Shown here piece by piece: positions 5,452 through 44,350 of a stretch of DNA of 64,000 nucleotides; position 1 is the stretch's first letter; every line of letters starts with the position of its first letter. The position numbers and the translations under genes are program-made. The stretch is from NCBI RefSeq assembly GCF_963678975.1, contig NC_089279.1, positions 33,795,297 to 33,859,296 on the forward strand. The letters are read 5' to 3'. This DNA is from Dysidea avara. Its lineage: Eukaryota > Porifera > Demospongiae > Dictyoceratida > Dysideidae. A model generated the notes under the pieces. That model made no database searches. It saw only the letters and a list, made by a program, of their open reading frames with translations, and was not told the DNA's origin.

Positions 5452-6711
5452 TCATACACAACCACATGAGGTAGCTCTAGCTGGAATGTTTTTGTAGATA
5501 GTCTCATGAGTCAACTCATTATAGAACACCGTTTGGATCAGTTCAAAATTAGTTGGTACACAACACCTCTTTGGTGCCCCTGCATGGCCTCTGGTCTGGT
5601 AGTAGTGGAGGGAAAGAATACTTGCATAATCAGTTAATGATTCTACTGGTAGTCTTGGACAGTGACCACCACACACTCCAACATCAAATGACTTGGGGAT
5701 CACCAGATGGACATTGCCTGCACTTATGGCAGTGTTGCTAACCTCCATTTTTTGAAGATGACATGCCACATGTGAGGTCTCAATAGAACTAGAACTGTTA
5801 CTTTCACGTCTTACTTTCTTGTGCTTTACATCTGACATCTTTTTTTCTTGTAACACTTTACTCAAGAATTTGTTAGTGTTATCATGAGTGAACACAACTA
5901 ACAAAGGTTCAGTGTTCAGAATGTCTTCTTGTTCCCCAGATGAGTAAACACCTTCACATGATAGTTGTTGCTCTCCTTTAGTCAGTGTAACTTTCAAGCC
6001 ATAGTTAACCCATCCTTGTTTCCAGCTCTCAACTATTGGAGTGACGTCAAATGTTTTCCATCCTGGACTAGAGTCAGTGTGTTTGAAAGTGAGCTTTAGA
6101 GGTGAGTCAATGTTGTTGTCATTGAGGAGGTAATAAATATTGACCTCATAGTAGTCTCCTGGCATTGAGATCTTCTGTAGTAGACGTAGTTCAGCATGAA
6201 TTATTTCCTCTCCATCAATGCTAGCCTTGCTAATGTTGAATTTATAATATCCACAACCAGTACCTATACAATAATACCATATAATAATTCAAATGGACAA
6301 CAATATAACTACCTATATAGCTATTTAGAGCATGTAATTTTTAACCTTAAGTACAGCGGACGTACCTATTGCTTGATTCCCAAAGGATCTTATTGTATTT
6401 GCTTTGGTCATCTTATGGCCTTTTAGTGTATGCACTGGTTCACTGGGAAAGTTAAAGTTGACAAAGAGATCCTTCAAGTAGCTGGGTAGAGTTGTGTTGG
6501 TTAGTTCATGAGCAAATTTGTTCATCTCAAGACTGTCATCGATGTTCTCTGAGTCATCATCAAGACTCCATGAGTCTGAATTATTGGCTTCCTTTCTAGT
6601 CACCTTCACTGGTTGCTGCTCCTCTACCATATGTCTGATGGGAACTGAGTCAACTGTAAAATGACTGAGAGTGAGTAGTAGTAGAATCAGGTACACTGAG
6701 AACTTCATCAT
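5452..6711 (-). CDS. TGF-beta superfamily ligand precursor, copy 2 (2 exons)
   Basis: Tandem paralogue of copy 1, about 385 residues. Exon 1 is 6366-6711 and exon 2 is 5452-6263, exactly 812 bp as in copy 1. The intron is 102 bp with phase 1. The ATG at 6711 (MMKF) is chosen because it aligns with copy 1; the upstream in-frame extension has only a TTG. It has a signal peptide, a propeptide with an NTT sequon, a KVRR cleavage site and a seven-cysteine C-terminal knot (VCGGHC, RCCVPT, CGCV). The propeptide has an extra acidic stretch around SWSLDDD that copy 1 lacks. The mature domain differs from copy 1 at six residues, all outside the cysteines, so both products should fold the same way. The strong conservation suggests both copies are functional or the duplication is recent. 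Confidence 0.93.
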
Positions 6712-6787
6712 CTTGTTAACTCCTTTAGTTACTTGTTTCAAGTTCTGCTAAATCACTCCACTGAAGTATGGTCCGTGATTCAGCTAC

Positions 6788-9719: not shown

Positions 9720-10171
9720 TCAAATAAACAAAGTAGTTGATGATTATACACATACAATATTATATGCATGTAGCAGTTGTCAACATTTTATCTGATACTG
9801 CTGATGTGATCTTTCTAGATACACCCATAGTCACTCTTACTCGATATCTTCTGTTGCCTTGGATTTTAGCAGAACATAAAGTGTACAAAAATGACTGGTA
9901 TTTTAACTCATCAAATAACAAAATGATCACCCCTGTAGTCATCAATCAGTACATAGCAAAGGTAAGGCCATGGAGCAACTGAAGCAGCCAAATCTATTTA
10001 TTGTCAGCAGTTACCAAACTTTTACATTGATGCATGTCTGTGATGTACTTTTGGTAAAGGATGAAGACTCAAATTAAAAAGGCTACATATGTTTGAGAAA
10101 CAAGTTTTTCTGAGTCAATTAAAATATATTGGACTGAATATTTGTACAACTTCAGCTAATATACTTTAGAC
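9720..10171. other. short non-coding spacer before the large repeat block
   Basis: Unique-looking AT-rich DNA. A plus-strand open frame at 9737-9982 has no recognisable domain. Nothing else is seen. Confidence 0.4.
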
Positions 10172-10987
10172 ATCAAGACACACGATAGTGTGTCGTGCGG
10201 CCCAAGAAGCCGGCGCGCCACACCGTGAGTATATTAACAGGAAGAAAGAAAACGCAATTTTCACACCTATGTAGCTCTGTGATCCCTTATCCGATTGGAA
10301 CCAAATTTGCTGGAGACGTGCCGCCCAGCTAGGGTAGTCTACATACCAAATTTGAAGAAAATCGCTCCAGCCATTTCCGAGATACGAGCGAACAAAATTT
10401 CGTTTTAATTTCTTCGTTTTTTTCTTCTTCTTCTTCTTCTTCTTCTTCTTCATCTTCTTCATTTCGCACACTTCGCAAAATTCGCCATAAAACACGAATG
10501 CGTGCTCGGATTTGGCTGAAATTTGGCACACTTAAAGGGCTCATTAAGGCGGATCTCCGTACCAACTTTGGTAGGAATCCGATGAACAGTCACGGAGTTA
10601 TGACCGATTATTTGCGTAAAATAAGGTCGAAGGTCTGTCACGCCTACAGGGTAAACGCCTTGGAGGAATCAGTTGAAAATTGATATGTAGATGGAGCAAC
10701 CATCGTAGGAGTGCCTTTTTGTGGTTTGAAAGGAATCGGGATAAAGACCATGGAGATATGACACGAAACCCAACCTGTGTCAAAATTACGCGATCGATTT
10801 TTATGAATAAAAAAACTATTAGTTTTCGTATCTACCAGGCAAACTGCTTAGAGCAACGAGCTGAAAATCAGTATGTAGCTGGAATAATCATCATAGAAGG
10901 TCCTTGCAGTAGTACAGAAGAATCGGATTACAAATCACTGAGTTATGATTCGAAAGGCAACTAGGTGCAGCAAATGCGAGATCGAGA

Positions 10988-11006
10988 TACTCTAATAGAA
11001 CAGTCA
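10988..11006. repeat. recurrent motif TACTCTAATAGAACAGTCA
   Basis: A 19-bp motif at the leader/array junction of unit 1. It recurs at the same place in units 2 and 3, at 41071-41089 and 50451-50469, and inverted with one change at 48807-48825 and 50497-50515. With one change it also occurs at 62696-62714. Confidence 0.8.
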
Positions 11007-14000
11007 CCCTAATAAAGCATTCAGCTGCATTTATAATTTACTCAGTTATATTACATTGTAAGTTATTCTGTGGGGAATTCAGCTACAAACAAGTCAACCT
11101 GTAGTCAGATCAGCTAGAAGAAGGTACCTAATAGAGAGTTCAGCTACAAATAAACCATCATGTAGAGAGTTCAGCTCAAATAAATCACCCTGTAGAGAAT
11201 TCAGCTACAAACAAATTGCCCTGTAGAGAGATCAGCTAGAAGAAGTTACCTTGTAGAGAGTTCAGTTACAAAGAAACAATCATGCAAAGAGTTTAGCTAC
11301 AAACAAATCACCCAGTAAAAAGTTCCGCTATGAACAGATCACACTGTAGAGAGTTCAGTTAGAAACAAGTCATCCTGTAGAGAGATCAGCTAGAAGAAGT
11401 TACCTTGTAGAGAGTTCAGCTACAAACAAATCACCCTGTAGAGAGTTCAGCTACAAACAAGTCACCCTGTAGAGAGATCAGCTAGAAGAAGTTACCTTGT
11501 AGAGAGTTCAGCTACAAACAAATTACCCTGTAGAAAGTTCAGTTACAAACAAGTCACCCTGTAGAGAGATCAGCTAGAAACAAGTCATCCTGTAGAGAGT
11601 TCAGCTAGAAGAAGTTACGTTGTACAGAGTTCAGCTACAAAGAAACTACCATGTAGAGAGTTCAGCTGCAAATAAATCGCCCTGTAGAGAGTTCAGCTAC
11701 AAACAAATCACCCTGTAGAAAGATCCGCTAGAAGAAGTTACCTTGTAGAGAGTTCAGCTACAAACAAATCACCCTGTAGAAAGGTCAGCTAGAAGAAGTT
11801 ACCTTGTAGAGAGTTCAGCTACAAACAAATCACCCTGTAGAGAGTTCAGCTAGAAACAAGTCACCCTGTAGAGAGATCAGCTAGAAACAAGCCACCCGTA
11901 GAGAGTTCAGCTAGAAGAAGTTGCATTGTAGAGAGTTCAGCTACAAAGAAGCTACCTTGTAGAGAGTTCAGCTGCAAACAAATCGCCCTGTAGAGAATTC
12001 AGCTACAAACAAATCACCCTGTAGAAAGGTCAGCTAGAAGAAGTTACCTTGTAGAGAGTTCAGCTACAAACAAATCACCCTGTAGAGAGTTCAGCTTCAA
12101 ACAAGTCACCATGTAGAGAGTTCAGCTAGAAGAAGTTACATTGTAGAGAGTTCAGCTACAAAGAAGCTACCTTGTAGAGAGTTCAGCTGCAAATAAATCG
12201 CCCTGTAGAGAGTTCAGCTACAAACAAATCACCCTGTAGAAAGATCCGCTAGAAGAAGTTACCTTGTAGAGAGTTCAGCTACAAACAAATCACCCTGTAG
12301 AGAGTTCAGCTTCAAACAAGTCACCATGTAGAGAGTTCAGCTAGAAGAAGTTACATTGTAGAGAGTTCAGCTACAAAGAAGCTACCTTGTAGAGAGTTCA
12401 GCTGCAAATAAATCGCCCTGTAGAGAGTTCAGCTACAGACAAATCACCCTGTAGAAAGATCCGCTAGAAGAAGTTACCTTGTAGAGAGTTCAGCTACAAA
12501 CAAATCACCCTGTAGAGAGTTCAGCTTCAAACAAGTCACCATGTAGAGAGTTCAGCTAGAAGAAGTTACATTGTAGAGAGTTCAGCTACAAAGAAGCTAC
12601 CTTGTAGAGAGTTCAGCTGCAAATAAATCGCCCTGTAGAGAGTTCAGCTACAAACAAATCACCCTGTAGAAAGATCCGCTAGAAGAAGTTACCTTGTAGG
12701 GAGTTCAGCTACAAACAAATCACCCTGTAGAAAGGTCAGCTAGAAGAAGTTACCTTGTAGAGAGTTCAGCTACAAACAAATCACCCTGTAGAGAGTTCAG
12801 CTAGAAACAAGTCACCCTGTAGAGAGATCAGCTAGAAACAAGCCACCCATAGAGAGTTCAGCTAGAAGAAGTTACATTGTAGAGAGTTCAGCTACAAACA
12901 AGTCACCATGTAGAGAGTTCAGCTAGAAGAAGTTACCTTGTAGAGAGTTCAGCTACAAACAAATCACCCTGTAGAGAGTTCAGCTACAAACAAGTCACCC
13001 TGCAGAGAGATCAGCTAGAAACAAGTCATCCTGTAGAGAGTTCAGCTAGAAGAAGTTACCTTGTAGAGAGTTCAGCTACAAACAAATCACCCTGTAGACA
13101 GTTCAGCTACAAACAAGTCACCCTGTAGAGAGATCAGCTAGAAACAAGTCATCCTGTAGAGAGTTCAGCTAGAAGAAGTTACATTGTAGAGAGTTCAGCT
13201 ACAAAGAAACTACCATGTAGAGAATTCAGCTACAGAAGAAGTTACCTTGTAGAGGGTTCAGCTACAAACAAATCACCTTGTAGAGAGTTCAGATAGAAAC
13301 AAGTCACCCTGTAGAGAGTTCAGCTAGAAACAAGCCACCCGTAGAGAGTTCAGCTAGAAGAAGTTACATTGTAGAGAGTTCAGCTACAAAGAAGCTACCT
13401 TGTAGAGAGTTCAGCTGCAAACAAATCGCCCTGTAGAGAATTCAGCTACAAACAAATCACCCTGTAGAAAGATCAGCTAGAAGAAGTTACCTTGTAGAGA
13501 GTTCAGCTACAAACAAATCACCCTGTAGAGAGTTCAGCTTCAAACAAGTCACCATGTAGAGAGTTCAGCTAGAAGAAGTTACATTGTAGAGAGTTCAGCT
13601 ACAAAGAAACTACCATGTAAAGAGTTCAGCTGCAAACAAATCGCCCTGTAGAGAATTCAGCTACAAACAAATCACCCTGTAAAAAGATCAGCTAGAAGAA
13701 GTTACCTTGTAGAGAGTTCAGCTACAAACAAATCACCTTGCAGAGAGTTCAGCTAGAAACAAGTCACCCTGTAGAGAGATCAACTAGAAACAAGCCACCC
13801 GTAGATAGTTCAGCTAGAATAAGTTACACTGTAGAGAGTTCAGCTACAAAGAAACTACCATGTAGAGAGTTCAGCTGCAAACAAATTGCCCTGTAGAGAA
13901 TTCAGCTACAAACAAATCACCCTGTAAAAAGATCAGCTAGAAGAAGTTACCTTGTAGAGAGTTCAGCTTCAAACAAATCACCTTGTAGAGAGTTCAGCTA

Positions 14001-16230
14001 GAAACAAGTCACCCTGTAGAGAGATCAACTAGAAACAAGCCACCCGTAGATAGTTCAGCTAGAATAAGTTACACTGTAGAGAGTTCGGCTACAAAGAAAC
14101 TACCATGTAGAGAGTTCAGCTGCAAACAAATTGCCCTGTAGAGAATTCAGCTACAAACAAATCACCCTGTAGAAAGATCAGCTAGAAGAAGTTACCTTGT
14201 AGAGAGTTCAGCTACAAACAAATCACCCTGTAGAGAGTTCAGCTAGAAACAAGTCACCCTGTAGAGAGATCAGCTAGAAACAAGCCACCCATAGAGAGTT
14301 CAGCTAGAAGAAGTTACATTGTAGAGAGTTCAGCTACAAACAAGTCACCATGTAGAGAGTTCAGCTAGAAGAAGTTACCTTGTAGAGAGTTCAGCTACAA
14401 ACAAATCACCCTGTAGAGAGTTCAGCTACAAACAAGTCACCCTGCAGAGAGATCAGCTAGAAACAAGTCATCCTGTAGAGAGTTCAGCTAGAAGAAGTTA
14501 CCTTGTAGAGAGTTCAGCTACAAACAAATCACCCTGTAGACAGTTCAGCTACAAACAAGTCACCCTGTAGAGAGATCAGCTAGAAACAAGTCATCCTGTA
14601 GAGAGTTCAGCTAGAAGAAGTTACATTGTAGAGAGTTCAGCTACAAAGAAACTACCATGTAGAGAATTCAGCTACAGAAGAAGTTACCTTGTAGAGGGTT
14701 CAGCTACAAACAAATCACCTTGTAGAGAGTTCAGATAGAAACAAGTCACCCTGTAGAGAGTTCAGCTAGAAACAAGCCACCCGTAGAGAGTTCAGCTAGA
14801 AGAAGTTACATTGTAGAGAGTTCAGCTACAAAGAAGCTACCTTGTAGAGAGTTCAGCTGCAAACAAATCGCCCTGTAGAGAATTCAGCTACAAACAAATC
14901 ACCCTGTAGAAAGATCAGCTAGAAGAAGTTACCTTGTAGAGAGTTCAGCTACAAACAAATCACCCTGTAGAGAGTTCAGCTTCAAACAAGTCACCATGTA
15001 GAGGGTTCAGCTAGAAGAAGTTACATTGTAGAGAGTTCAGCTACAAAGAAACTACCATGTAAAGAGTTCAGCTGCAAACAAATCGCCCTGTAGAGAATTC
15101 AGCTACAAACAAATCACCCTGTAGAAAGATCAGCTAGAAGAAGTTACCTTGTAGAGAGTTCAGCTACAAACAAATCACCTTGTAGAGAGTTCAGCTAGAA
15201 ACAAGTCACCCTGTAGAGAGATCAACTAGAAACAAGCCACCCGTAGATAGTTCAGCTAGAATAAGTTACACTGTAGAGAGTTCGGCTACAAAGAAACTAC
15301 CATGTAGAGAGTTCAGCTGCAAACAAATTGCCCTGTAGAGAATTCAGCTACAAACAAATCACCCTGTAGAAAGATCAGCTAGAAGAAGTTACCTTGTAGA
15401 GAGTTCAGCTACAAACAAATCACCCTGTAGAGAGTTCAGCTACAAACAAGTCACCCTGTAGAGAGATCAGCTAGAAACAAGTCATCCTTTAGAGAGTTCA
15501 GCTAGAAGAAGTTACATTGTAGAGAGTTCAGCTACAAAGAAACTACCATGTAGAGAGTTTAGCTGCAAACAAATCGTCCTGTAGAGAATTCAGCTACAAA
15601 CAAATCACCCTGTAGAAAGATTAGCTAGAAGAAGTTACCTTGTAGAGAGTTCAGCTACAAACAAATCACCTTGTAGAGAGTTCAGCTACAAACAAGTCAC
15701 CCTGTAGAGAGATTAGCTAGAAACAAGCCACCCGTAGAGAGTTTAGCTAGAAGAAGTTACATTGTAGAGAGTTCAGCAGTTTAGCTGCAAACAAATCACC
15801 CTGTAGAGAATTCAGCTACAAACAAATCACCCTGTAGAAAGATCAGCCAGAAGAAGTTACCTTGTAGAGAGTTCAGCTACAAACAAGTCACCCTGTAGAG
15901 AGATCAGCTAGAAACAAGCCACCCGTAGAGAGTTTAGCTAGAAGAAGTTACATTGTAGAGAGTTCAGCAGTTTAGCTGCAAACAAATCGCCCTGTAGAGA
16001 ATTCAGCTACAAACAAATCACCCTGTAGAAAGATCAGCTAGAAGAAGTTACCTTGTAGAGAGTTCAGCTACAAACAAATCACCCTGTAGAGAGTTCAGCT
16101 ACAAACAAGTTATCTGGTAGAGGGATCAGCTAGAAGGATCACCTTGCAGAGAGTTCAGCTACAAACAAGTTATCTGGTAGAGGGATCAGCTAGAAGGATC
16201 ACCTTGCAGAGAGGTCAGCTACAAAGAAAT
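11007..16230 (+). repeat. 30-31-bp minisatellite array with higher-order structure (unit 1)
   Basis: About 170 tandem monomers built as TGTAGAGAGTTCAGCTACAA plus ACAAATCACCC, or as ATCAGCTAGAAGAAGTTACCT variants. The types alternate in ordered blocks. The diagnostic variants CCTGCAGAGAG (13,000 area and 14441) and CCTGTAGACAG (13091 and 14533) repeat at 1442 bp, showing a higher-order module. The array in unit 2 has the same length. No transcript or protein is predicted. Confidence 0.93.
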
Positions 16231-16342
16231 CACCCTGCTTCATCTTTTCTTCTTCCTGTAGTAAAGAAAAAAATGACAGGTTAAAAAGCCCTAAAGCCGG
16301 CCATAGGTCGGCTTTGGGGTATACAAATGCAAAAAGAAGTGA

Positions 16343-16671
16343 AATCTAATCCAAAACAGCCAAGCTGTAAAAAAAGAGTGCGGCCCTGAGAAAGGCTATG
16401 GTGAAAAAAGATGTGAAATCCAAGGTGGCGGCCAAGAAATGGCTGTGATGGTAGGTTAATGGTAAAAATTTTAATAACAGCAATTCAGTGAATTTGGTGC
16501 CGCTTGGTCTTGGCACAAAATTCACTTGAATTGTCGTTATTAAAATTTTTACCATTAACCTACCATCACAGCCATTTCTTGGCCGCCACCTTGGATTTCA
16601 CATCTTTTTTCACCATAGCCTTTCTCAGGGCCGCACTCTTTTTTTACAGCTTGGCTGTTTTGGATTAGATT
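16343..16671. repeat. perfect-looking hairpin (foldback), unit 1
   Basis: Two inverted arms of ~155 bp flank a short centre. The left arm starts AATCTAATCCAAAACAGCC and the right arm ends GGCTGTTTTGGATTAGATT. The centre has its own small stem, GTGCC/GGCAC. The arms match at nearly every base apart from small differences near the loop. The open frame inside it is a shadow of the palindrome. It occurs again at 30214-30541 but is missing from unit 2. Confidence 0.93.
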
Positions 16672-16677
16672 CTATAT

Positions 16678-19600
16678 ATCAAGACACACGATAGTGTGTC
16701 GTGCGGCCCAAGAAGCCGGCGCGCCACACCGTGAGTATCAAGACACACGATAGTGTGTCGTGCGGCCCAAGAAGCCGGCGCGCCACACCGTGAGTATATT
16801 AACAGGAAGAAAGAAAACGCAATTTTCACACCTATGTAGCTCTGTGATCCCTTATCCGATTGGAACCAAATTTGCTGGAGACGTGCCGCCCAGCTAGGGT
16901 AGTCTACATACCAAATTTGAAGAAAATCGCTCCAGCCATTTCCGAGATACGAGCGAACAAAATTTCGTTTTAATTTCTTCGTTTTTTTCTTCTTCTTCTT
17001 CTTCTTCTTCTTCATCTTCTTCATTTCGCACACTTCGCAAAATTCGCCATAAAACACGAATGCGTGCTCGGATTTGGCTGAAATTTGGCACACTTAAAGG
17101 GCTCATTAAGGCGGATCTCCGTACCAACTTTGGTAGGAATCCGATGAACAGTCACGGAGTTATGACCGATTATTTGCGTAAAATAAGGTCGAAGGTCTGT
17201 CACGCCTACAGGGTAAACGCCTTGGAGGAATCAGTTGAAAATTGATATGTAGATGGAGCAACCATCGTAGGAGTGCCTTTTTGTGGTTTGAAAGGAATCG
17301 GGATAAAGACCATGGAGATATGACACGAAACCCAACCTGTGTCAAAATTACGCGATCGATTTTTATGAATAAAAAAACTATTAGTTTTCGTATCTACCAG
17401 GCAAACTGCTTAGAGCAACGAGCTGAAAATCAGTATGTAGCTGGAATAATCATCATAGAAGGTCCTTGCAGTAGTACAGAAGAATCGGATTACAAATCAC
17501 TGAGTTATGATTCGAAAGGCAACTAGGTGCAGCAAATGCGAGATCGAGATACTCTAATAGAACAGTCACCCTAATAAAGCATTCAGCTGCATTTATAATT
17601 TACTCAGTTATATTACATTGTAAGTTATTCTGTGGGGAATTCAGCTACAAACAAGTCAACCTGTAGTCAGATCAGCTAGAAGAAGGTACCTAATAGAGAG
17701 TTCAGCTACAAATAAACCATCATGTAGAGAGTTCAGCTCAAATAAATCACCCTGTAGAGAATTCAGCTACAAACAAATTGCCCTGTAGAGAGATCAGCTA
17801 GAAGAAGTTACCTTGTAGAGAGTTCAGTTACAAAGAAACAATCATGCAAAGAGTTTAGCTACAAACAAATCACCCAGTAAAAAGTTCCGCTATGAACAGA
17901 TCACACTGTAGAGAGTTCAGTTAGAAACAAGTCATCCTGTAGAGAGATCAGCTAGAAGAAGTTACCTTGTAGAGAGTTCAGCTACAAACAAATCACCCTG
18001 TAGAGAGTTCAGCTACAAACAAGTCACCCTGTAGAGAGATCAGCTAGAAGAAGTTACCTTGTAGAGAGTTCAGCTACAAACAAATTACCCTGTAGAAAGT
18101 TCAGTTACAAACAAGTCACCCTGTAGAGAGATCAGCTAGAAACAAGTCATCCTGTAGAGAGTTCAGCTAGAAGAAGTTACGTTGTACAGAGTTCAGCTAC
18201 AAAGAAACTACCATGTAGAGAGTTCAGCTGCAAATAAATCGCCCTGTAGAGAGTTCAGCTACAAACAAATCACCCTGTAGAAAGATCCGCTAGAAGAAGT
18301 TACCTTGTAGAGAGTTCAGCTACAAACAAATCACCCTGTAGAAAGGTCAGCTAGAAGAAGTTACCTTGTAGAGAGTTCAGCTACAAACAAATCACCCTGT
18401 AGAGAGTTCAGCTAGAAACAAGTCACCCTGTAGAGAGATCAGCTAGAAACAAGCCACCCGTAGAGAGTTCAGCTAGAAGAAGTTGCATTGTAGAGAGTTC
18501 AGCTACAAAGAAGCTACCTTGTAGAGAGTTCAGCTGCAAACAAATCGCCCTGTAGAGAATTCAGCTACAAACAAATCACCCTGTAGAAAGGTCAGCTAGA
18601 AGAAGTTACCTTGTAGAGAGTTCAGCTACAAACAAATCACCCTGTAGAGAGTTCAGCTTCAAACAAGTCACCATGTAGAGAGTTCAGCTAGAAGAAGTTA
18701 CATTGTAGAGAGTTCAGCTACAAAGAAGCTACCTTGTAGAGAGTTCAGCTGCAAATAAATCGCCCTGTAGAGAGTTCAGCTACAAACAAATCACCCTGTA
18801 GAAAGATCCGCTAGAAGAAGTTACCTTGTAGAGAGTTCAGCTACAAACAAATCACCCTGTAGAGAGTTCAGCTTCAAACAAGTCACCATGTAGAGAGTTC
18901 AGCTAGAAGAAGTTACATTGTAGAGAGTTCAGCTACAAAGAAGCTACCTTGTAGAGAGTTCAGCTGCAAATAAATCGCCCTGTAGAGAGTTCAGCTACAG
19001 ACAAATCACCCTGTAGAAAGATCCGCTAGAAGAAGTTACCTTGTAGAGAGTTCAGCTACAAACAAATCACCCTGTAGAGAGTTCAGCTTCAAACAAGTCA
19101 CCATGTAGAGAGTTCAGCTAGAAGAAGTTACATTGTAGAGAGTTCAGCTACAAAGAAGCTACCTTGTAGAGAGTTCAGCTGCAAATAAATCGCCCTGTAG
19201 AGAGTTCAGCTACAAACAAATCACCCTGTAGAAAGATCCGCTAGAAGAAGTTACCTTGTAGGGAGTTCAGCTACAAACAAATCACCCTGTAGAAAGGTCA
19301 GCTAGAAGAAGTTACCTTGTAGAGAGTTCAGCTACAAACAAATCACCCTGTAGAGAGTTCAGCTAGAAACAAGTCACCCTGTAGAGAGATCAGCTAGAAA
19401 CAAGCCACCCATAGAGAGTTCAGCTAGAAGAAGTTACATTGTAGAGAGTTCAGCTACAAACAAGTCACCATGTAGAGAGTTCAGCTAGAAGAAGTTACCT
19501 TGTAGAGAGTTCAGCTACAAACAAATCACCCTGTAGAGAGTTCAGCTACAAACAAGTCACCCTGCAGAGAGATCAGCTAGAAACAAGTCATCCTGTAGAG

Positions 19601-22600
19601 AGTTCAGCTAGAAGAAGTTACCTTGTAGAGAGTTCAGCTACAAACAAATCACCCTGTAGACAGTTCAGCTACAAACAAGTCACCCTGTAGAGAGATCAGC
19701 TAGAAACAAGTCATCCTGTAGAGAGTTCAGCTAGAAGAAGTTACATTGTAGAGAGTTCAGCTACAAAGAAACTACCATGTAGAGAATTCAGCTACAGAAG
19801 AAGTTACCTTGTAGAGGGTTCAGCTACAAACAAATCACCTTGTAGAGAGTTCAGATAGAAACAAGTCACCCTGTAGAGAGTTCAGCTAGAAACAAGCCAC
19901 CCGTAGAGAGTTCAGCTAGAAGAAGTTACATTGTAGAGAGTTCAGCTACAAAGAAGCTACCTTGTAGAGAGTTCAGCTGCAAACAAATCGCCCTGTAGAG
20001 AATTCAGCTACAAACAAATCACCCTGTAGAAAGATCAGCTAGAAGAAGTTACCTTGTAGAGAGTTCAGCTACAAACAAATCACCCTGTAGAGAGTTCAGC
20101 TTCAAACAAGTCACCATGTAGAGAGTTCAGCTAGAAGAAGTTACATTGTAGAGAGTTCAGCTACAAAGAAACTACCATGTAAAGAGTTCAGCTGCAAACA
20201 AATCGCCCTGTAGAGAATTCAGCTACAAACAAATCACCCTGTAAAAAGATCAGCTAGAAGAAGTTACCTTGTAGAGAGTTCAGCTACAAACAAATCACCT
20301 TGCAGAGAGTTCAGCTAGAAACAAGTCACCCTGTAGAGAGATCAACTAGAAACAAGCCACCCGTAGATAGTTCAGCTAGAATAAGTTACACTGTAGAGAG
20401 TTCAGCTACAAAGAAACTACCATGTAGAGAGTTCAGCTGCAAACAAATTGCCCTGTAGAGAATTCAGCTACAAACAAATCACCCTGTAAAAAGATCAGCT
20501 AGAAGAAGTTACCTTGTAGAGAGTTCAGCTTCAAACAAATCACCTTGTAGAGAGTTCAGCTAGAAACAAGTCACCCTGTAGAGAGATCAACTAGAAACAA
20601 GCCACCCGTAGATAGTTCAGCTAGAATAAGTTACACTGTAGAGAGTTCGGCTACAAAGAAACTACCATGTAGAGAGTTCAGCTGCAAACAAATTGCCCTG
20701 TAGAGAATTCAGCTACAAACAAATCACCCTGTAGAAAGATCAGCTAGAAGAAGTTACCTTGTAGAGAGTTCAGCTACAAACAAATCACCCTGTAGAGAGT
20801 TCAGCTAGAAACAAGTCACCCTGTAGAGAGATCAGCTAGAAACAAGCCACCCATAGAGAGTTCAGCTAGAAGAAGTTACATTGTAGAGAGTTCAGCTACA
20901 AACAAGTCACCATGTAGAGAGTTCAGCTAGAAGAAGTTACCTTGTAGAGAGTTCAGCTACAAACAAATCACCCTGTAGAGAGTTCAGCTACAAACAAGTC
21001 ACCCTGCAGAGAGATCAGCTAGAAACAAGTCATCCTGTAGAGAGTTCAGCTAGAAGAAGTTACCTTGTAGAGAGTTCAGCTACAAACAAATCACCCTGTA
21101 GACAGTTCAGCTACAAACAAGTCACCCTGTAGAGAGATCAGCTAGAAACAAGTCATCCTGTAGAGAGTTCAGCTAGAAGAAGTTACATTGTAGAGAGTTC
21201 AGCTACAAAGAAACTACCATGTAGAGAATTCAGCTACAGAAGAAGTTACCTTGTAGAGGGTTCAGCTACAAACAAATCACCTTGTAGAGAGTTCAGATAG
21301 AAACAAGTCACCCTGTAGAGAGTTCAGCTAGAAACAAGCCACCCGTAGAGAGTTCAGCTAGAAGAAGTTACATTGTAGAGAGTTCAGCTACAAAGAAGCT
21401 ACCTTGTAGAGAGTTCAGCTGCAAACAAATCGCCCTGTAGAGAATTCAGCTACAAACAAATCACCCTGTAGAAAGATCAGCTAGAAGAAGTTACCTTGTA
21501 GAGAGTTCAGCTACAAACAAATCACCCTGTAGAGAGTTCAGCTTCAAACAAGTCACCATGTAGAGGGTTCAGCTAGAAGAAGTTACATTGTAGAGAGTTC
21601 AGCTACAAAGAAACTACCATGTAAAGAGTTCAGCTGCAAACAAATCGCCCTGTAGAGAATTCAGCTACAAACAAATCACCCTGTAGAAAGATCAGCTAGA
21701 AGAAGTTACCTTGTAGAGAGTTCAGCTACAAACAAATCACCTTGTAGAGAGTTCAGCTAGAAACAAGTCACCCTGTAGAGAGATCAACTAGAAACAAGCC
21801 ACCCGTAGATAGTTCAGCTAGAATAAGTTACACTGTAGAGAGTTCGGCTACAAAGAAACTACCATGTAGAGAGTTCAGCTGCAAACAAATTGCCCTGTAG
21901 AGAATTCAGCTACAAACAAATCACCCTGTAGAAAGATCAGCTAGAAGAAGTTACCTTGTAGAGAGTTCAGCTACAAACAAATCACCCTGTAGAGAGTTCA
22001 GCTACAAACAAGTCACCCTGTAGAGAGATCAGCTAGAAACAAGTCATCCTTTAGAGAGTTCAGCTAGAAGAAGTTACATTGTAGAGAGTTCAGCTACAAA
22101 GAAACTACCATGTAGAGAGTTTAGCTGCAAACAAATCGTCCTGTAGAGAATTCAGCTACAAACAAATCACCCTGTAGAAAGATTAGCTAGAAGAAGTTAC
22201 CTTGTAGAGAGTTCAGCTACAAACAAATCACCTTGTAGAGAGTTCAGCTACAAACAAGTCACCCTGTAGAGAGATTAGCTAGAAACAAGCCACCCGTAGA
22301 GAGTTTAGCTAGAAGAAGTTACATTGTAGAGAGTTCAGCAGTTTAGCTGCAAACAAATCACCCTGTAGAGAATTCAGCTACAAACAAATCACCCTGTAGA
22401 AAGATCAGCCAGAAGAAGTTACCTTGTAGAGAGTTCAGCTACAAACAAGTCACCCTGTAGAGAGATCAGCTAGAAACAAGCCACCCGTAGAGAGTTTAGC
22501 TAGAAGAAGTTACATTGTAGAGAGTTCAGCAGTTTAGCTGCAAACAAATCGCCCTGTAGAGAATTCAGCTACAAACAAATCACCCTGTAGAAAGATCAGC

Positions 22601-22939
22601 TAGAAGAAGTTACCTTGTAGAGAGTTCAGCTACAAACAAATCACCCTGTAGAGAGTTCAGCTACAAACAAGTTATCTGGTAGAGGGATCAGCTAGAAGGA
22701 TCACCTTGCAGAGAGTTCAGCTACAAACAAGTTATCTGGTAGAGGGATCAGCTAGAAGGATCACCTTGCAGAGAGGTCAGCTACAAAGAAATCACCCTGC
22801 TTCATCTTTTCTTCTTCCTGTAGTAAAGAAAAAAATGACAGGTTAAAAAGCCCTAAAGCCGGCCATAGGTCGGCTTTGGGGTATACAAATGCAAAAAGAA
22901 GTGAAATCTAATCCAAAACAGCCAAGCTGTAAAAAAAGA
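16678..22939 (+). repeat. large tandem unit 2 (hairpin lost)
   Basis: It starts with two tandem copies of the first 59 bp (16678-16736, then 16737 onward), whereas unit 1 has one. The distance from a leader landmark (17242) to GTGCGGCCC (22940) is 5698 bp, exactly as in unit 1 (10680 to 16378). The ~5.2-kb array therefore shows no net indel between them. At 22940 the left hairpin arm stops at GTGCGGCCC and is joined to the same 9 bases of the next unit's 59-bp head. Confidence 0.9.
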
Positions 22940-25900
22940 GTGCGGCCCAAGAAGCCGGCGCGCCACACCGTGAGTATCAAGACACACGATAGTGTGTCGT
23001 GCGGCCCAAGAAGCCGGCGCGCCACACCGTGAGTATATTAACAGGAAGAAAGAAAACGCAATTTTCACACCTATGTAGCTCTGTGATCCCTTATCCGATT
23101 GGAACCAAATTTGCTGGAGACGTGCCGCCCAGCTAGGGTAGTCTACATACCAAATTTGAAGAAAATCGCTCCAGCCATTTCCGAGATACGAGCGAACAAA
23201 ATTTCGTTTTAATTTCTTCGTTTTTTTCTTCTTCTTCTTCTTCTTCTTCTTCATCTTCTTCATTTCGCACACTTCGCAAAATTCGCCATAAAACACGAAT
23301 GCGTGCTCGGATTTGGCTGAAATTTGGCACACTTAAAGGGCTCATTAAGGCGGATCTCCGTACCAACTTTGGTAGGAATCCGATGAACAGTCACGGAGTT
23401 ATGACCGATTATTTGCGTAAAATAAGGTCGAAGGTCTGTCACGCCTACAGGGTAAACGCCTTGGAGGAATCAGTTGAAAATTGATATGTAGATGGAGCAA
23501 CCATCGTAGGAGTGCCTTTTTGTGGTTTGAAAGGAATCGGGATAAAGACCATGGAGATATGACACGAAACCCAACCTGTGTCAAAATTACGCGATCGATT
23601 TTTATGAATAAAAAAACTATTAGTTTTCGTATCTACCAGGCAAACTGCTTAGAGCAACGAGCTGAAAATCAGTATGTAGCTGGAATAATCATCATAGAAG
23701 GTCCTTGCAGTAGTACAGAAGAATCGGATTACAAATCACTGAGTTATGATTCGAAAGGCAACTAGGTGCAGCAAATGCGAGATCGAGATACTCTAATAGA
23801 ACAGTCACCCTAATAAAGCATTCAGCTGCATTTATAATTTACTCAGTTATATTACATTGTAAGTTATTCTGTGGGGAATTCAGCTACAAACAAGTCAACC
23901 TGTAGTCAGATCAGCTAGAAGAAGGTACCTAATAGAGAGTTCAGCTACAAATAAACCATCATGTAGAGAGTTCAGCTCAAATAAATCACCCTGTAGAGAA
24001 TTCAGCTACAAACAAATTGCCCTGTAGAGAGATCAGCTAGAAGAAGTTACCTTGTAGAGAGTTCAGTTACAAAGAAACAATCATGCAAAGAGTTTAGCTA
24101 CAAACAAATCACCCAGTAAAAAGTTCCGCTATGAACAGATCACACTGTAGAGAGTTCAGTTAGAAACAAGTCATCCTGTAGAGAGATCAGCTAGAAGAAG
24201 TTACCTTGTAGAGAGTTCAGCTACAAACAAATCACCCTGTAGAGAGTTCAGCTACAAACAAGTCACCCTGTAGAGAGATCAGCTAGAAGAAGTTACCTTG
24301 TAGAGAGTTCAGCTACAAACAAATTACCCTGTAGAAAGTTCAGTTACAAACAAGTCACCCTGTAGAGAGATCAGCTAGAAACAAGTCATCCTGTAGAGAG
24401 TTCAGCTAGAAGAAGTTACGTTGTACAGAGTTCAGCTACAAAGAAACTACCATGTAGAGAGTTCAGCTGCAAATAAATCGCCCTGTAGAGAGTTCAGCTA
24501 CAAACAAATCACCCTGTAGAAAGATCCGCTAGAAGAAGTTACCTTGTAGAGAGTTCAGCTACAAACAAATCACCCTGTAGAAAGGTCAGCTAGAAGAAGT
24601 TACCTTGTAGAGAGTTCAGCTACAAACAAATCACCCTGTAGAGAGTTCAGCTAGAAACAAGTCACCCTGTAGAGAGATCAGCTAGAAACAAGCCACCCGT
24701 AGAGAGTTCAGCTAGAAGAAGTTGCATTGTAGAGAGTTCAGCTACAAAGAAGCTACCTTGTAGAGAGTTCAGCTGCAAACAAATCGCCCTGTAGAGAATT
24801 CAGCTACAAACAAATCACCCTGTAGAAAGGTCAGCTAGAAGAAGTTACCTTGTAGAGAGTTCAGCTACAAACAAATCACCCTGTAGAGAGTTCAGCTTCA
24901 AACAAGTCACCATGTAGAGAGTTCAGCTAGAAGAAGTTACATTGTAGAGAGTTCAGCTACAAAGAAGCTACCTTGTAGAGAGTTCAGCTGCAAATAAATC
25001 GCCCTGTAGAGAGTTCAGCTACAAACAAATCACCCTGTAGAAAGATCCGCTAGAAGAAGTTACCTTGTAGAGAGTTCAGCTACAAACAAATCACCCTGTA
25101 GAGAGTTCAGCTTCAAACAAGTCACCATGTAGAGAGTTCAGCTAGAAGAAGTTACATTGTAGAGAGTTCAGCTACAAAGAAGCTACCTTGTAGAGAGTTC
25201 AGCTGCAAATAAATCGCCCTGTAGAGAGTTCAGCTACAGACAAATCACCCTGTAGAAAGATCCGCTAGAAGAAGTTACCTTGTAGAGAGTTCAGCTACAA
25301 ACAAATCACCCTGTAGAGAGTTCAGCTTCAAACAAGTCACCATGTAGAGAGTTCAGCTAGAAGAAGTTACATTGTAGAGAGTTCAGCTACAAAGAAGCTA
25401 CCTTGTAGAGAGTTCAGCTGCAAATAAATCGCCCTGTAGAGAGTTCAGCTACAAACAAATCACCCTGTAGAAAGATCCGCTAGAAGAAGTTACCTTGTAG
25501 GGAGTTCAGCTACAAACAAATCACCCTGTAGAAAGGTCAGCTAGAAGAAGTTACCTTGTAGAGAGTTCAGCTACAAACAAATCACCCTGTAGAGAGTTCA
25601 GCTAGAAACAAGTCACCCTGTAGAGAGATCAGCTAGAAACAAGCCACCCATAGAGAGTTCAGCTAGAAGAAGTTACATTGTAGAGAGTTCAGCTACAAAC
25701 AAGTCACCATGTAGAGAGTTCAGCTAGAAGAAGTTACCTTGTAGAGAGTTCAGCTACAAACAAATCACCCTGTAGAGAGTTCAGCTACAAACAAGTCACC
25801 CTGCAGAGAGATCAGCTAGAAACAAGTCATCCTGTAGAGAGTTCAGCTAGAAGAAGTTACCTTGTAGAGAGTTCAGCTACAAACAAATCACCCTGTAGAC

Positions 25901-28900
25901 AGTTCAGCTACAAACAAGTCACCCTGTAGAGAGATCAGCTAGAAACAAGTCATCCTGTAGAGAGTTCAGCTAGAAGAAGTTACATTGTAGAGAGTTCAGC
26001 TACAAAGAAACTACCATGTAGAGAATTCAGCTACAGAAGAAGTTACCTTGTAGAGGGTTCAGCTACAAACAAATCACCTTGTAGAGAGTTCAGATAGAAA
26101 CAAGTCACCCTGTAGAGAGTTCAGCTAGAAACAAGCCACCCGTAGAGAGTTCAGCTAGAAGAAGTTACATTGTAGAGAGTTCAGCTACAAAGAAGCTACC
26201 TTGTAGAGAGTTCAGCTGCAAACAAATCGCCCTGTAGAGAATTCAGCTACAAACAAATCACCCTGTAGAAAGATCAGCTAGAAGAAGTTACCTTGTAGAG
26301 AGTTCAGCTACAAACAAATCACCCTGTAGAGAGTTCAGCTTCAAACAAGTCACCATGTAGAGAGTTCAGCTAGAAGAAGTTACATTGTAGAGAGTTCAGC
26401 TACAAAGAAACTACCATGTAAAGAGTTCAGCTGCAAACAAATCGCCCTGTAGAGAATTCAGCTACAAACAAATCACCCTGTAAAAAGATCAGCTAGAAGA
26501 AGTTACCTTGTAGAGAGTTCAGCTACAAACAAATCACCTTGCAGAGAGTTCAGCTAGAAACAAGTCACCCTGTAGAGAGATCAACTAGAAACAAGCCACC
26601 CGTAGATAGTTCAGCTAGAATAAGTTACACTGTAGAGAGTTCAGCTACAAAGAAACTACCATGTAGAGAGTTCAGCTGCAAACAAATTGCCCTGTAGAGA
26701 ATTCAGCTACAAACAAATCACCCTGTAAAAAGATCAGCTAGAAGAAGTTACCTTGTAGAGAGTTCAGCTTCAAACAAATCACCTTGTAGAGAGTTCAGCT
26801 AGAAACAAGTCACCCTGTAGAGAGATCAACTAGAAACAAGCCACCCGTAGATAGTTCAGCTAGAATAAGTTACACTGTAGAGAGTTCGGCTACAAAGAAA
26901 CTACCATGTAGAGAGTTCAGCTGCAAACAAATTGCCCTGTAGAGAATTCAGCTACAAACAAATCACCCTGTAGAAAGATCAGCTAGAAGAAGTTACCTTG
27001 TAGAGAGTTCAGCTACAAACAAATCACCCTGTAGAGAGTTCAGCTAGAAACAAGTCACCCTGTAGAGAGATCAGCTAGAAACAAGCCACCCATAGAGAGT
27101 TCAGCTAGAAGAAGTTACATTGTAGAGAGTTCAGCTACAAACAAGTCACCATGTAGAGAGTTCAGCTAGAAGAAGTTACCTTGTAGAGAGTTCAGCTACA
27201 AACAAATCACCCTGTAGAGAGTTCAGCTACAAACAAGTCACCCTGCAGAGAGATCAGCTAGAAACAAGTCATCCTGTAGAGAGTTCAGCTAGAAGAAGTT
27301 ACCTTGTAGAGGGTTCAGCTACAAACAAATCACCTTGTAGAGAGTTCAGATAGAAACAAGTCACCCTGTAGAGAGTTCAGCTAGAAACAAGCCACCCGTA
27401 GAGAGTTCAGCTAGAAGAAGTTACATTGTAGAGAGTTCAGCTACAAAGAAGCTACCTTGTAGAGAGTTCAGCTGCAAACAAATCGCCCTGTAGAGAATTC
27501 AGCTACAAACAAATCACCCTGTAGAAAGATCAGCTAGAAGAAGTTACCTTGTAGAGAGTTCAGCTACAAACAAATCACCCTGTAGAGAGTTCAGCTTCAA
27601 ACAAGTCACCATGTAGAGGGTTCAGCTAGAAGAAGTTACATTGTAGAGAGTTCAGCTACAAAGAAACTACCATGTAAAGAGTTCAGCTGCAAACAAATCG
27701 CCCTGTAGAGAATTCAGCTACAAACAAATCACCCTGTAGAAAGATCAGCTAGAAGAAGTTACCTTGTAGAGAGTTCAGCTACAAACAAATCACCTTGTAG
27801 AGAGTTCAGCTAGAAACAAGTCACCCTGTAGAGAGATCAACTAGAAACAAGCCACCCGTAGATAGTTCAGCTAGAATAAGTTACACTGTAGAGAGTTCAG
27901 CTACAAAGAAACTACCATGTAGAGAGTTCAGCTGCAAACAAATTGCCCTGTAGAGAATTCAGCTACAAACAAATCACCCTGTAAAAAGATCAGCTAGAAG
28001 AAGTTACCTTGTAGAGAGTTCAGCTTCAAACAAATCACCTTGTAGAGAGTTCAGCTAGAAACAAGTCACCCTGTAGAGAGATCAACTAGAAACAAGCCAC
28101 CCGTAGATAGTTCAGCTAGAATAAGTTACACTGTAGAGAGTTCGGCTACAAAGAAACTACCATGTAGAGAGTTCAGCTGCAAACAAATTGCCCTGTAGAG
28201 AATTCAGCTACAAACAAATCACCCTGTAGAAAGATCAGCTAGAAGAAGTTACCTTGTAGAGAGTTCAGCTACAAACAAATCACCCTGTAGAGAGTTCAGC
28301 TAGAAACAAGTCACCCTGTAGAGAGATCAGCTAGAAACAAGCCACCCATAGAGAGTTCAGCTAGAAGAAGTTACATTGTAGAGAGTTCAGCTACAAACAA
28401 GTCACCATGTAGAGAGTTCAGCTAGAAGAAGTTACCTTGTAGAGAGTTCAGCTACAAACAAATCACCCTGTAGAGAGTTCAGCTACAAACAAGTCACCCT
28501 GCAGAGAGATCAGCTAGAAACAAGTCATCCTGTAGAGAGTTCAGCTAGAAGAAGTTACCTTGTAGAGGGTTCAGCTACAAACAAATCACCTTGTAGAGAG
28601 TTCAGATAGAAACAAGTCACCCTGTAGAGAGTTCAGCTAGAAACAAGCCACCCGTAGAGAGTTCAGCTAGAAGAAGTTACATTGTAGAGAGTTCAGCTAC
28701 AAAGAAGCTACCTTGTAGAGAGTTCAGCTGCAAACAAATCGCCCTGTAGAGAATTCAGCTACAAACAAATCACCCTGTAGAAAGATCAGCTAGAAGAAGT
28801 TACCTTGTAGAGAGTTCAGCTACAAACAAATCACCCTGTAGAGAGTTCAGCTTCAAACAAGTCACCATGTAGAGGGTTCAGCTAGAAGAAGTTACATTGT

Positions 28901-30541
28901 AGAGAGTTCAGCTACAAAGAAACTACCATGTAAAGAGTTCAGCTGCAAACAAATCGCCCTGTAGAGAATTCAGCTACAAACAAATCACCCTGTAGAAAGA
29001 TCAGCTAGAAGAAGTTACCTTGTAGAGAGTTCAGCTACAAACAAATCACCTTGTAGAGAGTTCAGCTAGAAACAAGTCACCCTGTAGAGAGATCAACTAG
29101 AAACAAGCCACCCGTAGATAGTTCAGCTAGAATAAGTTACACTGTAGAGAGTTCGGCTACAAAGAAACTACCATGTAGAGAGTTCAGCTGCAAACAAATT
29201 GCCCTGTAGAGAATTCAGCTACAAACAAATCACCCTGTAGAAAGATCAGCTAGAAGAAGTTACCTTGTAGAGAGTTCAGCTACAAACAAATCACCCTGTA
29301 GAGAGTTCAGCTACAAACAAGTCACCCTGTAGAGAGATCAGCTAGAAACAAGTCATCCTTTAGAGAGTTCAGCTAGAAGAAGTTACATTGTAGAGAGTTC
29401 AGCTACAAAGAAACTACCATGTAGAGAGTTTAGCTGCAAACAAATCGTCCTGTAGAGAATTCAGCTACAAACAAATCACCCTGTAGAAAGATTAGCTAGA
29501 AGAAGTTACCTTGTAGAGAGTTCAGCTACAAACAAATCACCTTGTAGAGAGTTCAGCTACAAACAAGTCACCCTGTAGAGAGATTAGCTAGAAACAAGCC
29601 ACCCGTAGAGAGTTTAGCTAGAAGAAGTTACATTGTAGAGAGTTCAGCAGTTTAGCTGCAAACAAATCACCCTGTAGAGAATTCAGCTACAAACAAATCA
29701 CCCTGTAGAAAGATCAGCCAGAAGAAGTTACCTTGTAGAGAGTTCAGCTACAAACAAGTCACCCTGTAGAGAGATCAGCTAGAAACAAGCCACCCGTAGA
29801 GAGTTTAGCTAGAAGAAGTTACATTGTAGAGAGTTCAGCAGTTTAGCTGCAAACAAATCGCCCTGTAGAGAATTCAGCTACAAACAAATCACCCTGTAGA
29901 AAGATCAGCTAGAAGAAGTTACCTTGTAGAGAGTTCAGCTACAAACAAATCACCCTGTAGAGAGTTCAGCTACAAACAAGTTATCTGGTAGAGGGATCAG
30001 CTAGAAGGATCACCTTGCAGAGAGTTCAGCTACAAACAAGTTATCTGGTAGAGGGATCAGCTAGAAGGATCACCTTGCAGAGAGGTCAGCTACAAAGAAA
30101 TCACCCTGCTTCATCTTTTCTTCTTCCTGTAGTAAAGAAAAAAATGACAGGTTAAAAAGCCCTAAAGCCGGCCATAGGTCGGCTTTGGGGTATACAAATG
30201 CAAAAAGAAGTGAAATCTAATCCAAAACAGCCAAGCTGTAAAAAAAGAGTGCGGCCCTGAGAAAGGCTATGGTGAAAAAAGATGTGAAATCCAAGGTGGC
30301 GGCCAAGAAATGGCTGTGATGGTAGGTTAATGGTAAAAATTTTAATAACAGCAATTCAGTGAATTTGGTGCCGCTTGGTCTTGGCACAAAATTCACTTGA
30401 ATTGTCGTTATTAAAATTTTTACCATTAACCTACCATCACAGCCATTTCTTGGCCGCCACCTTGGATTTCACATCTTTTTTCACCATAGCCTTTCTCAGG
30501 GCCGCACTCTTTTTTTACAGCTTGGCTGTTTTGGATTAGAT
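22940..30541 (+). repeat. large tandem unit 3 (longer array)
   Basis: A partial 59-bp head (22940-22975) is followed by a full one from 22976. The leader is near-identical to units 1 and 2. The array is 1070 bp longer: leader landmark to GTGCGGCCC is 6768 bp. The CCTGCAG marker occurs three times (25800, 27242, 28498), spaced 1442 and 1256 bp. One extra 1442-bp module and two 186-bp losses account exactly for 1070. The full hairpin closes the block. Confidence 0.9.
30214..30541. repeat. hairpin (foldback), unit 3
   Basis: Same ~155-bp inverted arms and centre as 16343-16671. It marks the right edge of the 20-kb block; unique-looking sequence resumes at about 30542. Confidence 0.92.
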
Positions 30542-30639
30542 ATATATTTCAGCATGCACATAGAGTTACCCATGATTAATTCACGTACCAGGAATATATC
30601 AGTTATCAAGCTTTATCTCTACAAGGCTATAATTGTAGG

Positions 30640-31087: not shown

Positions 31088-34000
31088 TTATAGACCCAAG
31101 GTATATTCAGTATCCTTGGACAATGACTGTCGAGATTTCAGTTTAGATGGTGTCTCTGTGATCACGTCGGTTAACTCATCCAGGAGACCGGAGGCATACA
31201 AGTCCTCGTAGTTTCTACTTATGGAAATAAAATATCAAAAGTTAGTTTATATGCAAATAAACTTGTTTATATTATATTATGTTAGTACAGAGAGTAAATT
31301 GAAGACTAAAGAGGAACTCTACATCTGTAAAGACACTTAGAATTCCAGTAGACTCTGACAATTGTATTGTCAATAGTCAGGCAACTAAGAACTTAATAGC
31401 AGTCACTGGAACTTAAGGATTCGGCGGCATCGACTCTACCTGATGGTGTTACTATTGCAAGGCGTTCAACAACGTCCTTGGCAAATGACCTCGGGGACAT
31501 AGGCTTCTTGTTGGGGGTCTCACCAATGATATCTGCAGACACATCCAGGAGACTACTATCCATGTCTTCAATAATGCTACTTGTGTGGTGGAGAAAAAAA
31601 AATGTAAATAATAAAATGTTTAGTTTTAATACTGTAGTAAGTTATGATATGTGTTAAGAGGTGATTGGTGAGAGAGAAGATGGTAGACGGAACTCTGTGA
31701 CATTGTTCAGAATTCTAGGGGACTCTGACAATAGTATTGTCAATAGTCAGGTAGCTAAGAACTTAATACTAGTCACAACAGTATTTGAATAGTATGGTTC
31801 AGCAGCATCGACTCTACCTGATTAAATGGTTACAGACGCAAGGTATATTCAGTATCCTTGGACAATGACTGTCGAGATTTCAGTTTAGATGGTGTCTCTG
31901 TGATCATGTCGGTTAACTCATCCAGGAGACCAGAGGCATACAAGTCCTCGTAGTTTCTACTTATGAAAGTAAAATATCAAAAGTTAGTTTATATGCAAAT
32001 AAACTTGTTTATATTACAATTATGTTAGTACAGAGAGTAAATTGAAGACTAAAGAGGAACTCTACATCTGTAAAGACACTTAGAATCTGACAATGGTATT
32101 GTCAATAGTCAGGTAACTAAGAACTTAATAGCTTAATAATAACTCATTTTTTACATTGAAGTTGTAATGTACAAAATGAGTTACTACTATCCATGTCTTG
32201 AGACTACTATCCATGTCTTCAATAATGATATCTGCAGACACATCCAGGAGACTACTATCCATGTCTTCAATAATGCTACTTGTGTGGTGGAGAGAAAAAA
32301 AATGTAAATAATACAATATTTAGTTTTAATACTGTAGTAAGTTATGATATGTGTTAAGAGGTGATTGGTGAGAGAGAAGATGGTAGACGGAACTCTGTGA
32401 CATTGTTCAGGATTCCAGTAGACTCTGACAATGGTATTGTCAACAGTCAGATAACTAAGAACTTAATAACTTAATAATAACTCATTTTGTACATTGAAGT
32501 TGTGAATCTGCATATAAGTGTATGTGTTACAATTTTTTGATTTGATTGATTTGACTTTTTGTTTAAACTCAAGACATTTGGCATAGCCATTCTTCCATGC
32601 CAGAGTACATAAAGTATACAAAGACAAAGTACAAAAATGAAGAACACAAACGGATAAGTAAATAAATAATTGACAAATGCAAAACAACCAAAAAGTTAGA
32701 CAATTAAATATACACACACATTATCTATTTTTAGTCAAGTAGTAAGACTTCATTCTAGATGTAATAGATAGTTAATTTTTAACACTACATTCCATAATAA
32801 ATTTTTAAAACTACTCTGCACACAGTGCTTTCTCCAGATCAAAAAGATACATAATAGTTATACGGGCACAATGTGGTCACTATATTATCTTTAACCAGGA
32901 GAGATGGAGAGGTGCCCTTCACCATGTGTGTAACCTCCATCACTGGTATGGAGGAGAATGTGAGCATGACACATTACCTGAGCCACCCACTGTCAATGGT
33001 GTACAGGTGGACTACTTTGTCCGTGGTGATGCTCACTATGTACTTCTCCAAAAACTACTGATGGATAAGACGTGGATGAAGTCATTGAAATATTTCACAC
33101 AATTCAGGTGTAATAACTTGCTCATCTGTGTGCAATGTCTGATAAATTCAGTGAATATTATACTATTAAATGTGTACTGGTATATATAGCTGAACATGTA
33201 AGCACCCTCCCTTATTTTATTACTTTTATTTCTATACTATTCAAATACTGTTGTGTGACTGGTGATATTTTAGGCCAGAAAATCCATCCCTAATATTGTA
33301 CACATAACCCATCCCTGATTACAGAACTACTCAATATGTAACATGGAGTCTTCGCTTAGTCTTCGCCGATTCTAATGTGACCCGCTCTCAATTTTAATTG
33401 TATTAATAATCTTTTGAGATATCCAAATTTGATAATTCATATTTAACCTCTATGCCTTACATGTATCTACTTGAAACTTTGTTACATAAATATTATTGTA
33501 CTATGCAACAGTTGTAAAGTGACTACCTTTTCTACAAGGCAAGTTATGAGTTGTCAATTGAAAAGGCTAGACCAGATTACATAGCTATTTGTTAGTGTAA
33601 TCAAACATAATATGTATGTATGCATTATTTCGTGAATTAGCCTATACAATGAATTAGCCTATACAATGAATTAGCCTATACAATGCCACTTGTACTGTAG
33701 TTGTAATGTGAATTAGCCTATACAATACCACTTGTACTGTAGTTGTAATGTGAATTAGCCTATACAATACCACTTGTACTGTAGTTGTAATGTGAATTAG
33801 CCTATACAATGCCACTTGTACTGTAGTTGTAATGTGAATTAGCCTATACAATGCTACTTGTACTGTAGTTGTAACATTACCAGTATCATTTATTCGTTGT
33901 TGATTAAGGCATAATGTGCACACCACATAACAGTCTATTGGAGAAATTAATTATGTGGGTGGACAAACCCCAAAAGTACAATCTACTAAGGGCCTGAGGG

Positions 34001-44330: not shown

Positions 44331-44350
44331 ACTGAAGTGACTTCTATATA

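Follow-up and report, generated by a model that had tools for sequence, protein, structure and literature searches.

Three head-to-tail minisatellite-bearing units in the sponge Dysidea avara as a candidate mobile element

Organization of the three-unit block

The window analysed here is a stretch of 64,000 nucleotides of the Dysidea avara genome (contig NC_089279.1), in which positions 10172–30541 are occupied by three nearly identical units arranged head to tail. Each unit consists of a leader of 885–888 bp (~0.9 kb), a minisatellite of 31-bp monomers and a short tail, in that order. Self-BLAST aligns 10172–16386 with 16737–22948 at 99.95% identity across 6215 columns, and 10172–16228 with 22976–29013 at 94.5% identity, gaps counted. 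Together with a base-by-base comparison, these alignments bear out an earlier note on this DNA, which had described a triplicated unit of leader, minisatellite and tail. The features of the block and of a related copy further downstream are located as follows.

10172–16670, plus strand: unit 1, 6499 bp, with leader, minisatellite, tail and terminal palindrome (self-BLAST and base-by-base comparison)
10172–10230, plus strand: head of unit 1, 59 bp, starting ATCAAG, with an 18-nt palindrome at 10177–10194
10172–11059, plus strand: leader of unit 1, with a TTC microsatellite at 10410–10460 and a diverged internal repeat
10237–10252, plus strand: purine-rich sequence with an inverted match (15 of 16 columns) just 3' of the array, a weak candidate for a subterminal inverted repeat
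11078–16234, plus strand: minisatellite of unit 1, 167 monomers of 31 bp
16288–16320, plus strand: a small stem-loop in the unit 1 tail, GC-rich and with a 15-bp stem; the fold was computed for the identical sequence at 30159–30191
16344–16670, plus strand: terminal palindrome of unit 1, 327 bp, arms of 144 nt whose 2 mismatches adjoin the loop
16671–16677, no strand: filler TCTATAT, 7 bp between units 1 and 2
16678–16736, plus strand: 1/2 junction, where the first 59 bp occur an additional time in tandem
16737–22948, plus strand: unit 2, 6212 bp, its tail ending within the left arm of the palindrome
17640–22796, plus strand: minisatellite of unit 2, 167 monomers of 31 bp, identical to the unit 1 array
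22940–22975, plus strand: 2/3 junction, a partial extra head copy joined to the left arm of the palindrome at the 9-bp GTGCGGCCC
22976–30541, plus strand: unit 3, 7566 bp, with a longer array and a complete terminal palindrome
23879–30105, plus strand: minisatellite of unit 3, 202 monomers of 31 bp, with a 186-bp loss and a 1256-bp duplication relative to unit 1
30116–30130, minus strand: inverted partner of the purine-rich sequence at 10237–10252, from a shuffle-tested alignment
30159–30191, plus strand: a small stem-loop in the unit 3 tail, GC-rich and with a 15-bp stem, from DNA folding
30215–30541, plus strand: terminal palindrome of unit 3, with the same sequence as in unit 1
61630–64000, plus strand: diverged related copy with the same start, an insertion of ~249 bp and repeats of 17 bp and 31 bp, cut by the window end

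Open reading frames of at least 110 aa are absent from the arrays, and the longest stop-to-stop frame in array 1 measures 81 aa. Along 11078–30108, A exceeds T on the plus strand by about +0.25 to +0.30 per kb across the arrays and more weakly in the leaders, and the GC skew is near zero.

When folded as DNA, the head reaches a z-score of −2.9 in unit 1 (2 of 200 shuffles fold as well) and −3.0 in the copy at 61630. The stem proposed in the earlier note for the start of the unit is thus upheld as a fold better than most shuffles, but in the minimum-energy structure the bases pair over longer distances instead of forming the 18-nt palindrome. The region of the tail stem folds with a z-score of −4.4 and that of the terminal palindrome with −41, in line with the small tail stem and the terminal hairpin of the note. 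As a correction to the note, the units are unequally bounded, most of the palindrome being missing where unit 2 meets unit 3 and additional head sequence (59 bp and a 36-bp part) standing at the internal junctions. The 327-bp palindrome may be the 3' end of an element, or a miniature inverted-repeat transposable element (MITE) that was inserted, nested, before the triplication; around it, no target-site duplication is seen by eye. Within the window, no Rfam model matches at its gathering score. Relaxed thresholds give 3 matches in 10140–11200, all far below the cut-offs, and 20 in 30080–30600, all below the cut-off; the best four of these are microRNA-precursor models in the palindrome, and they are taken for what any long hairpin yields.

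A second long palindrome lies at 44350–44654, with arms of 142 nt, 3 mismatches and a 21-nt loop. It is MITE-like and unrelated in sequence to the terminal palindrome. A 19-bp motif, TACTCTAATAGARCAGTCA (0–1 mismatch to its A form), occurs on the plus strand at 10988, 17550, 23789, 41071, 50451 and 62696 and on the minus strand at 40515, 48807 and 50497, in several contexts that include a small hairpin at 50441–50525.

Differences and junctions between the units

No base substitution between the units is found in the leaders, in the arrays or in the tiling of unit 3. Leader 1 differs from leader 2 by a single 3-bp indel, an extra TTC in leader 1, whereas leaders 2 and 3 are identical over 885 bp and arrays 1 and 2 over 5178 bp. 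Unit 3 matches unit 1 base for base over the first 3451 bp from its array start and over its final 1995 bp. Between these stretches it carries the 186-bp deletion and the tandemly duplicated 1256 bp, and exact pieces of unit 1 tile all 6681 bp of its array and tail. Within array 1, by comparison, the monomers share a mean identity of 82% (1500 random pairs). This divergence among monomers marks the array as old, and the lack of substitutions between units marks the triplication as young or homogenized, in agreement with the very recent duplication, or homogenization, that the note had proposed.

The 1/2 junction reads, in order, palindrome, TCTATAT, the extra copy of the first 59 bp, and leader. 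The 2/3 junction is the same sequence minus 323 bp, lost between a copy of GTGCGGCCC in the palindrome arm and a second copy in the head. This loss leaves 36 bp of the extra head copy and removes most of the terminal palindrome. A 9-bp direct repeat shared by head and tail is within chance expectation (17 of 200 shuffles). Extra head sequence is missing from the left edge of the block. Because it is present at both internal junctions, these share a common ancestral junction, and the trimer grew from that single head-to-tail join.

The filler TCTATAT does not derive from the present left flank, which ends TTTAGAC, or from the right flank, which starts ATATATTTC. The junction contains neither outer flank, and on this ground a plain tandem duplication of the locus as it now stands, with breaks in its flanks, is rejected. 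The 8-bp TTCTATAT, made up of the filler and the base before it at the 1/2 junction, is also found beside the palindrome at 44350, with further similarity, and this recurrence is treated as chance in AT-rich DNA.

Unit 2 combines the TTC allele of the unit 3 leader with the array of unit 1, as expected from a crossover between misaligned units. The combination fits a rolling-circle concatemer equally well if unit 1 later underwent one TTC change, and since both routes predict the same pattern, they are not separated by it. Unequal crossing-over explains the growth of the trimer equally, being sufficient for the addition of a third unit to two.

The diverged copy at 61630 and the surrounding genes

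The diverged copy at 61630, likewise reported in the note, is real. It begins at the same base as unit 1 (ATCAAG), and its head is the best-conserved stretch between the two loci, with 93% identity over 60 columns, compared with 65–88% in the 13 leader windows that follow. By BLAST, the two halves of its leader retain 77% and 72% identity and are separated by the insertion, which occupies 61907–62155. Part of this insertion resembles 48423–48493 in reverse. Upstream of the start, 17 of 50 positions agree with unit 1. Over 100 bp of left flank, 486 of 500 shuffles do as well as the best local match, and over 300 bp, 84 of 500. As they match no better than shuffles, the left flanks are unrelated, as far as tested.

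The array of this copy comprises 40 monomers up to the window end, and its tail lies beyond the window. Mean monomer identity is 0.78 between the loci, 0.82 within the unit 1 array and 0.76 within the 61630 array. Monomers are thus about as alike between the loci as within a locus, which places the array before the split of the loci; judged from these comparisons, the unit probably had its present composition before they diverged. The evidence for dispersal is one extra locus with one end visible, sharing the module order and related monomers with the block. The note's proposal of a mobile, satellite-carrying unit is supported by the common start, conserved head, module order, related monomers and unlike flanks, but only a single extra locus bears on it. 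Mobility of the unit is likely.

Elsewhere in the window, two similar adjacent TGF-beta-like genes lie on the minus strand at 1437–2682 and 5452–6747, with TGF-beta-like propeptide and ligand domain at 1437–2270 and 5452–6288. A 794-aa open frame at 50982–53366, also on the minus strand, encodes a NACHT domain and a leucine-rich repeat (LRR). A 42-bp repeat in five copies with 98% matches (33667–33874) overlaps a 17-bp repeat. The Pfam scan covered 16 of the 18 stop-to-stop open reading frames of at least 110 aa in the window, eight at E 0.001 and eight more at E 1; the other two, at 16898 and 23137, closely resemble the frame at 10333, which was scanned. The matches above curated cut-offs are TGF-beta-like and NACHT-LRR only, and these genes point to an animal host.

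Possible origin and relation to known elements

The reading that we favour, tentatively and with somewhat less than even confidence, is that of a non-coding, non-autonomous mobile element that carries its own old minisatellite and is moved in trans, its copies being joined in a rolling-circle-like manner. The element would be moved by proteins made elsewhere, and its structured, conserved head would form one (5') end, with the old 31-bp minisatellite carried between this conserved 5' end and a hairpin-rich 3' end. A rolling-circle-like (Helitron/Helentron-like) movement would be able to join head to tail. The first junction, with its 7-bp filler and repeated 59-bp head, may have arisen from imprecise joining of this kind or from adjacent insertion. 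A third unit would then have been added to the dimer through unequal crossing-over, or would stem from the same concatemer, and one junction would later have lost most of its palindrome by deletion between the 9-bp direct repeats.

By analogy, the closest known kind is that of the tandem-repeat-carrying HINEs (DINE-1, Cg_HINE). Cg_HINE elements of Crassostrea gigas are described as non-autonomous Helentrons with satellite-like central repeats (PMC7492417). Like the present unit, they have a left flank with a structured end and a microsatellite, central tandem repeats and a palindrome in the right flank, and the repeats move together with the element (PMC7492417). Their monomers average 140–180 bp and mostly number at most 5, with a maximum of 29, compared with 167–202 monomers of 31 bp here (PMC7492417). 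The present unit further differs from Cg_HINE in ending in a 327-bp palindrome, and it lacks the pair of 11–12-bp subterminal inverted repeats (subTIRs) at its ends and a TT at its left ends (PMC7492417). With HINE-Mo it shares a palindrome within a few bases of the 5' end, and with DINE-1 and HINE-Mo a stem-loop in the 3' part, a non-coding body and internal tandem repeats, which some DINE-1/HINE-Mo copies have (PMC4067079). Unlike these, the present tail bears no subTIR copy, there is no TT insertion site, and no Helentron partner is found among the scanned frames of the window (PMC4067079).

Plants and bats are reported to have tandem Helitron arrays, and Helraiser to form head-to-tail circles as intermediates, many of which are imprecise (PMC5876387, PMC2267711, PMC12628747). 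The present copies are likewise head to tail, and the 2/3 junction without its 3' end recalls Helitron arrays that have several 5' and fewer 3' ends; the unit differs in having no CTRR end (PMC5876387, PMC2267711, PMC12628747). Also unlike those arrays, the 1/2 junction has a full 3' palindrome, a 7-bp filler and a repeated 59-bp head. According to a model in a review, tandem Helitron arrays arise once the 3' terminator is lost. The 2/3 junction looks like such a terminator loss, by analogy with that model, but the intact 1/2 junction implies that terminator loss was not required for the present array. No published description of the present unit was found among titles and abstract openings. 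Exact-pattern scans of viral contigs give 0 matches, in a collection that says little about animals. One match in a bacterial metagenome-assembled genome (L001), from the scan of prokaryote contigs, is regarded as chance because the similarity is confined to the 21-bp pattern.

The resemblance to Helentron derivatives is one of order and behaviour, and the membership tests are mostly negative or inconclusive. Several results weigh against the favoured origin. No CTRR is seen by eye at the placed ends in either orientation: unit 3 ends GGATTAGA before T, and, read in reverse, the terminal letters are CTTGA before T. No TT or T-rich target is offered by the left flanks, which at the two independent loci end GAC and TGA. 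Allowing at most 3 mismatches, the head palindrome is found 5 times, always in a head, and 0 times in tails. Near the two unit ends, no 11–15-bp subTIRs of the Helentron/HINE type are found. The inverted purine-rich pair is weak and lies 65 bp inside; its score is reached by 7 of 500 shuffles against the tail without the palindrome and by 26 of 500 against the whole tail, and in ungapped form by 4, 27 and 2 of 200 shuffles at 0, 1 and 2 mismatches. None of the scanned frames matches a transposase, Rep, helicase or endonuclease family in Pfam, the 3' end of the unit is known from one locus, and the crossover step depends on a single TTC indel. The note had itself stated that no Rep/helicase and no clear CTRR were visible, and this holds for the frames scanned and for the ends as placed. 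Other features are less directional. ATC is found at both independent left ends (10172 and 61630) and at the internal heads; canonical Helitrons begin with TC following a host A, and here the A could belong to the element as its first base. In reverse orientation the 18-nt palindrome lies ~4–5 nt from the end, compared with 16–20 nt and ~11 nt from the 3' end for the canonical Helitron hairpin. The 15-bp tail stem at 30159–30191 is 350 bp from the unit end if the long palindrome is included. The right end of the block offers one outer sequence context only, and no target-site duplication is seen by eye at the outer flanks of this tandem array, for which there is no empty site for comparison. 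Of the Helitron/Helentron spread suggested in the note, the architecture and the head-to-tail joining stand as resemblances, while those end and target features that allow a test are lacking; membership among rolling-circle elements is not shown. It is unlikely that the unit represents a rolling-circle-type family with a giant near-perfect hairpin as its 3' end and a body of mostly self-carried minisatellite, now turning into a macrosatellite, in which a rolling-circle junction and the loss of the terminator via the 9-bp repeat would have led to a terminator-less array.

The units differ by a step in a microsatellite, by indels and duplication within the arrays and by a deletion between short direct repeats, and for such differences a transposase is unnecessary. 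They would also be produced by a complex satellite in formation, in which segmental duplication is followed by tandemization through replication slippage and unequal crossing-over, without transposition. Such a process has low probability in view of two loci with an exact common start, unrelated left flanks and a best-conserved head, and of a first junction that lies at most 7 bp from the unit ends and contains neither present flank. Another class of transposon, for example of foldback or MITE type, may instead have undergone a double insertion side by side, with later amplification through unequal exchange and with the 327-bp palindrome perhaps a nested MITE. The unrelated palindrome at 44350–44654 shows that MITE-like palindromes are present in the window, and a review describes transposable-element dimers formed through insertion-site preference. 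This origin is possible but doubtful, as head and tail end without a terminal inverted repeat joining them across the whole unit, and no target-site duplication is seen by eye beside the palindrome or the array. The copy number itself may have been altered in assembly, the true locus having fewer units or another number of them, given that assemblers generally struggle with near-perfect identity over 6 kb. The units are, however, distinct in their junctions and array lengths, and no duplicated outer flank occurs at the junctions, which makes such an artefact quite improbable.

The seeding of satellite DNA by transposons has mostly been inferred from decayed arrays. At this locus the steps are still readable: an old minisatellite within the unit, one common junction, growth free of substitutions, array indels and the loss of an end. 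If dispersed copies confirm the ends of the candidate element, rolling-circle joining and unequal crossing-over could be tested directly against each other at this locus. It belongs to a kind of system that is already known, and offers a recent view of the way mobile DNA may give rise to satellites.

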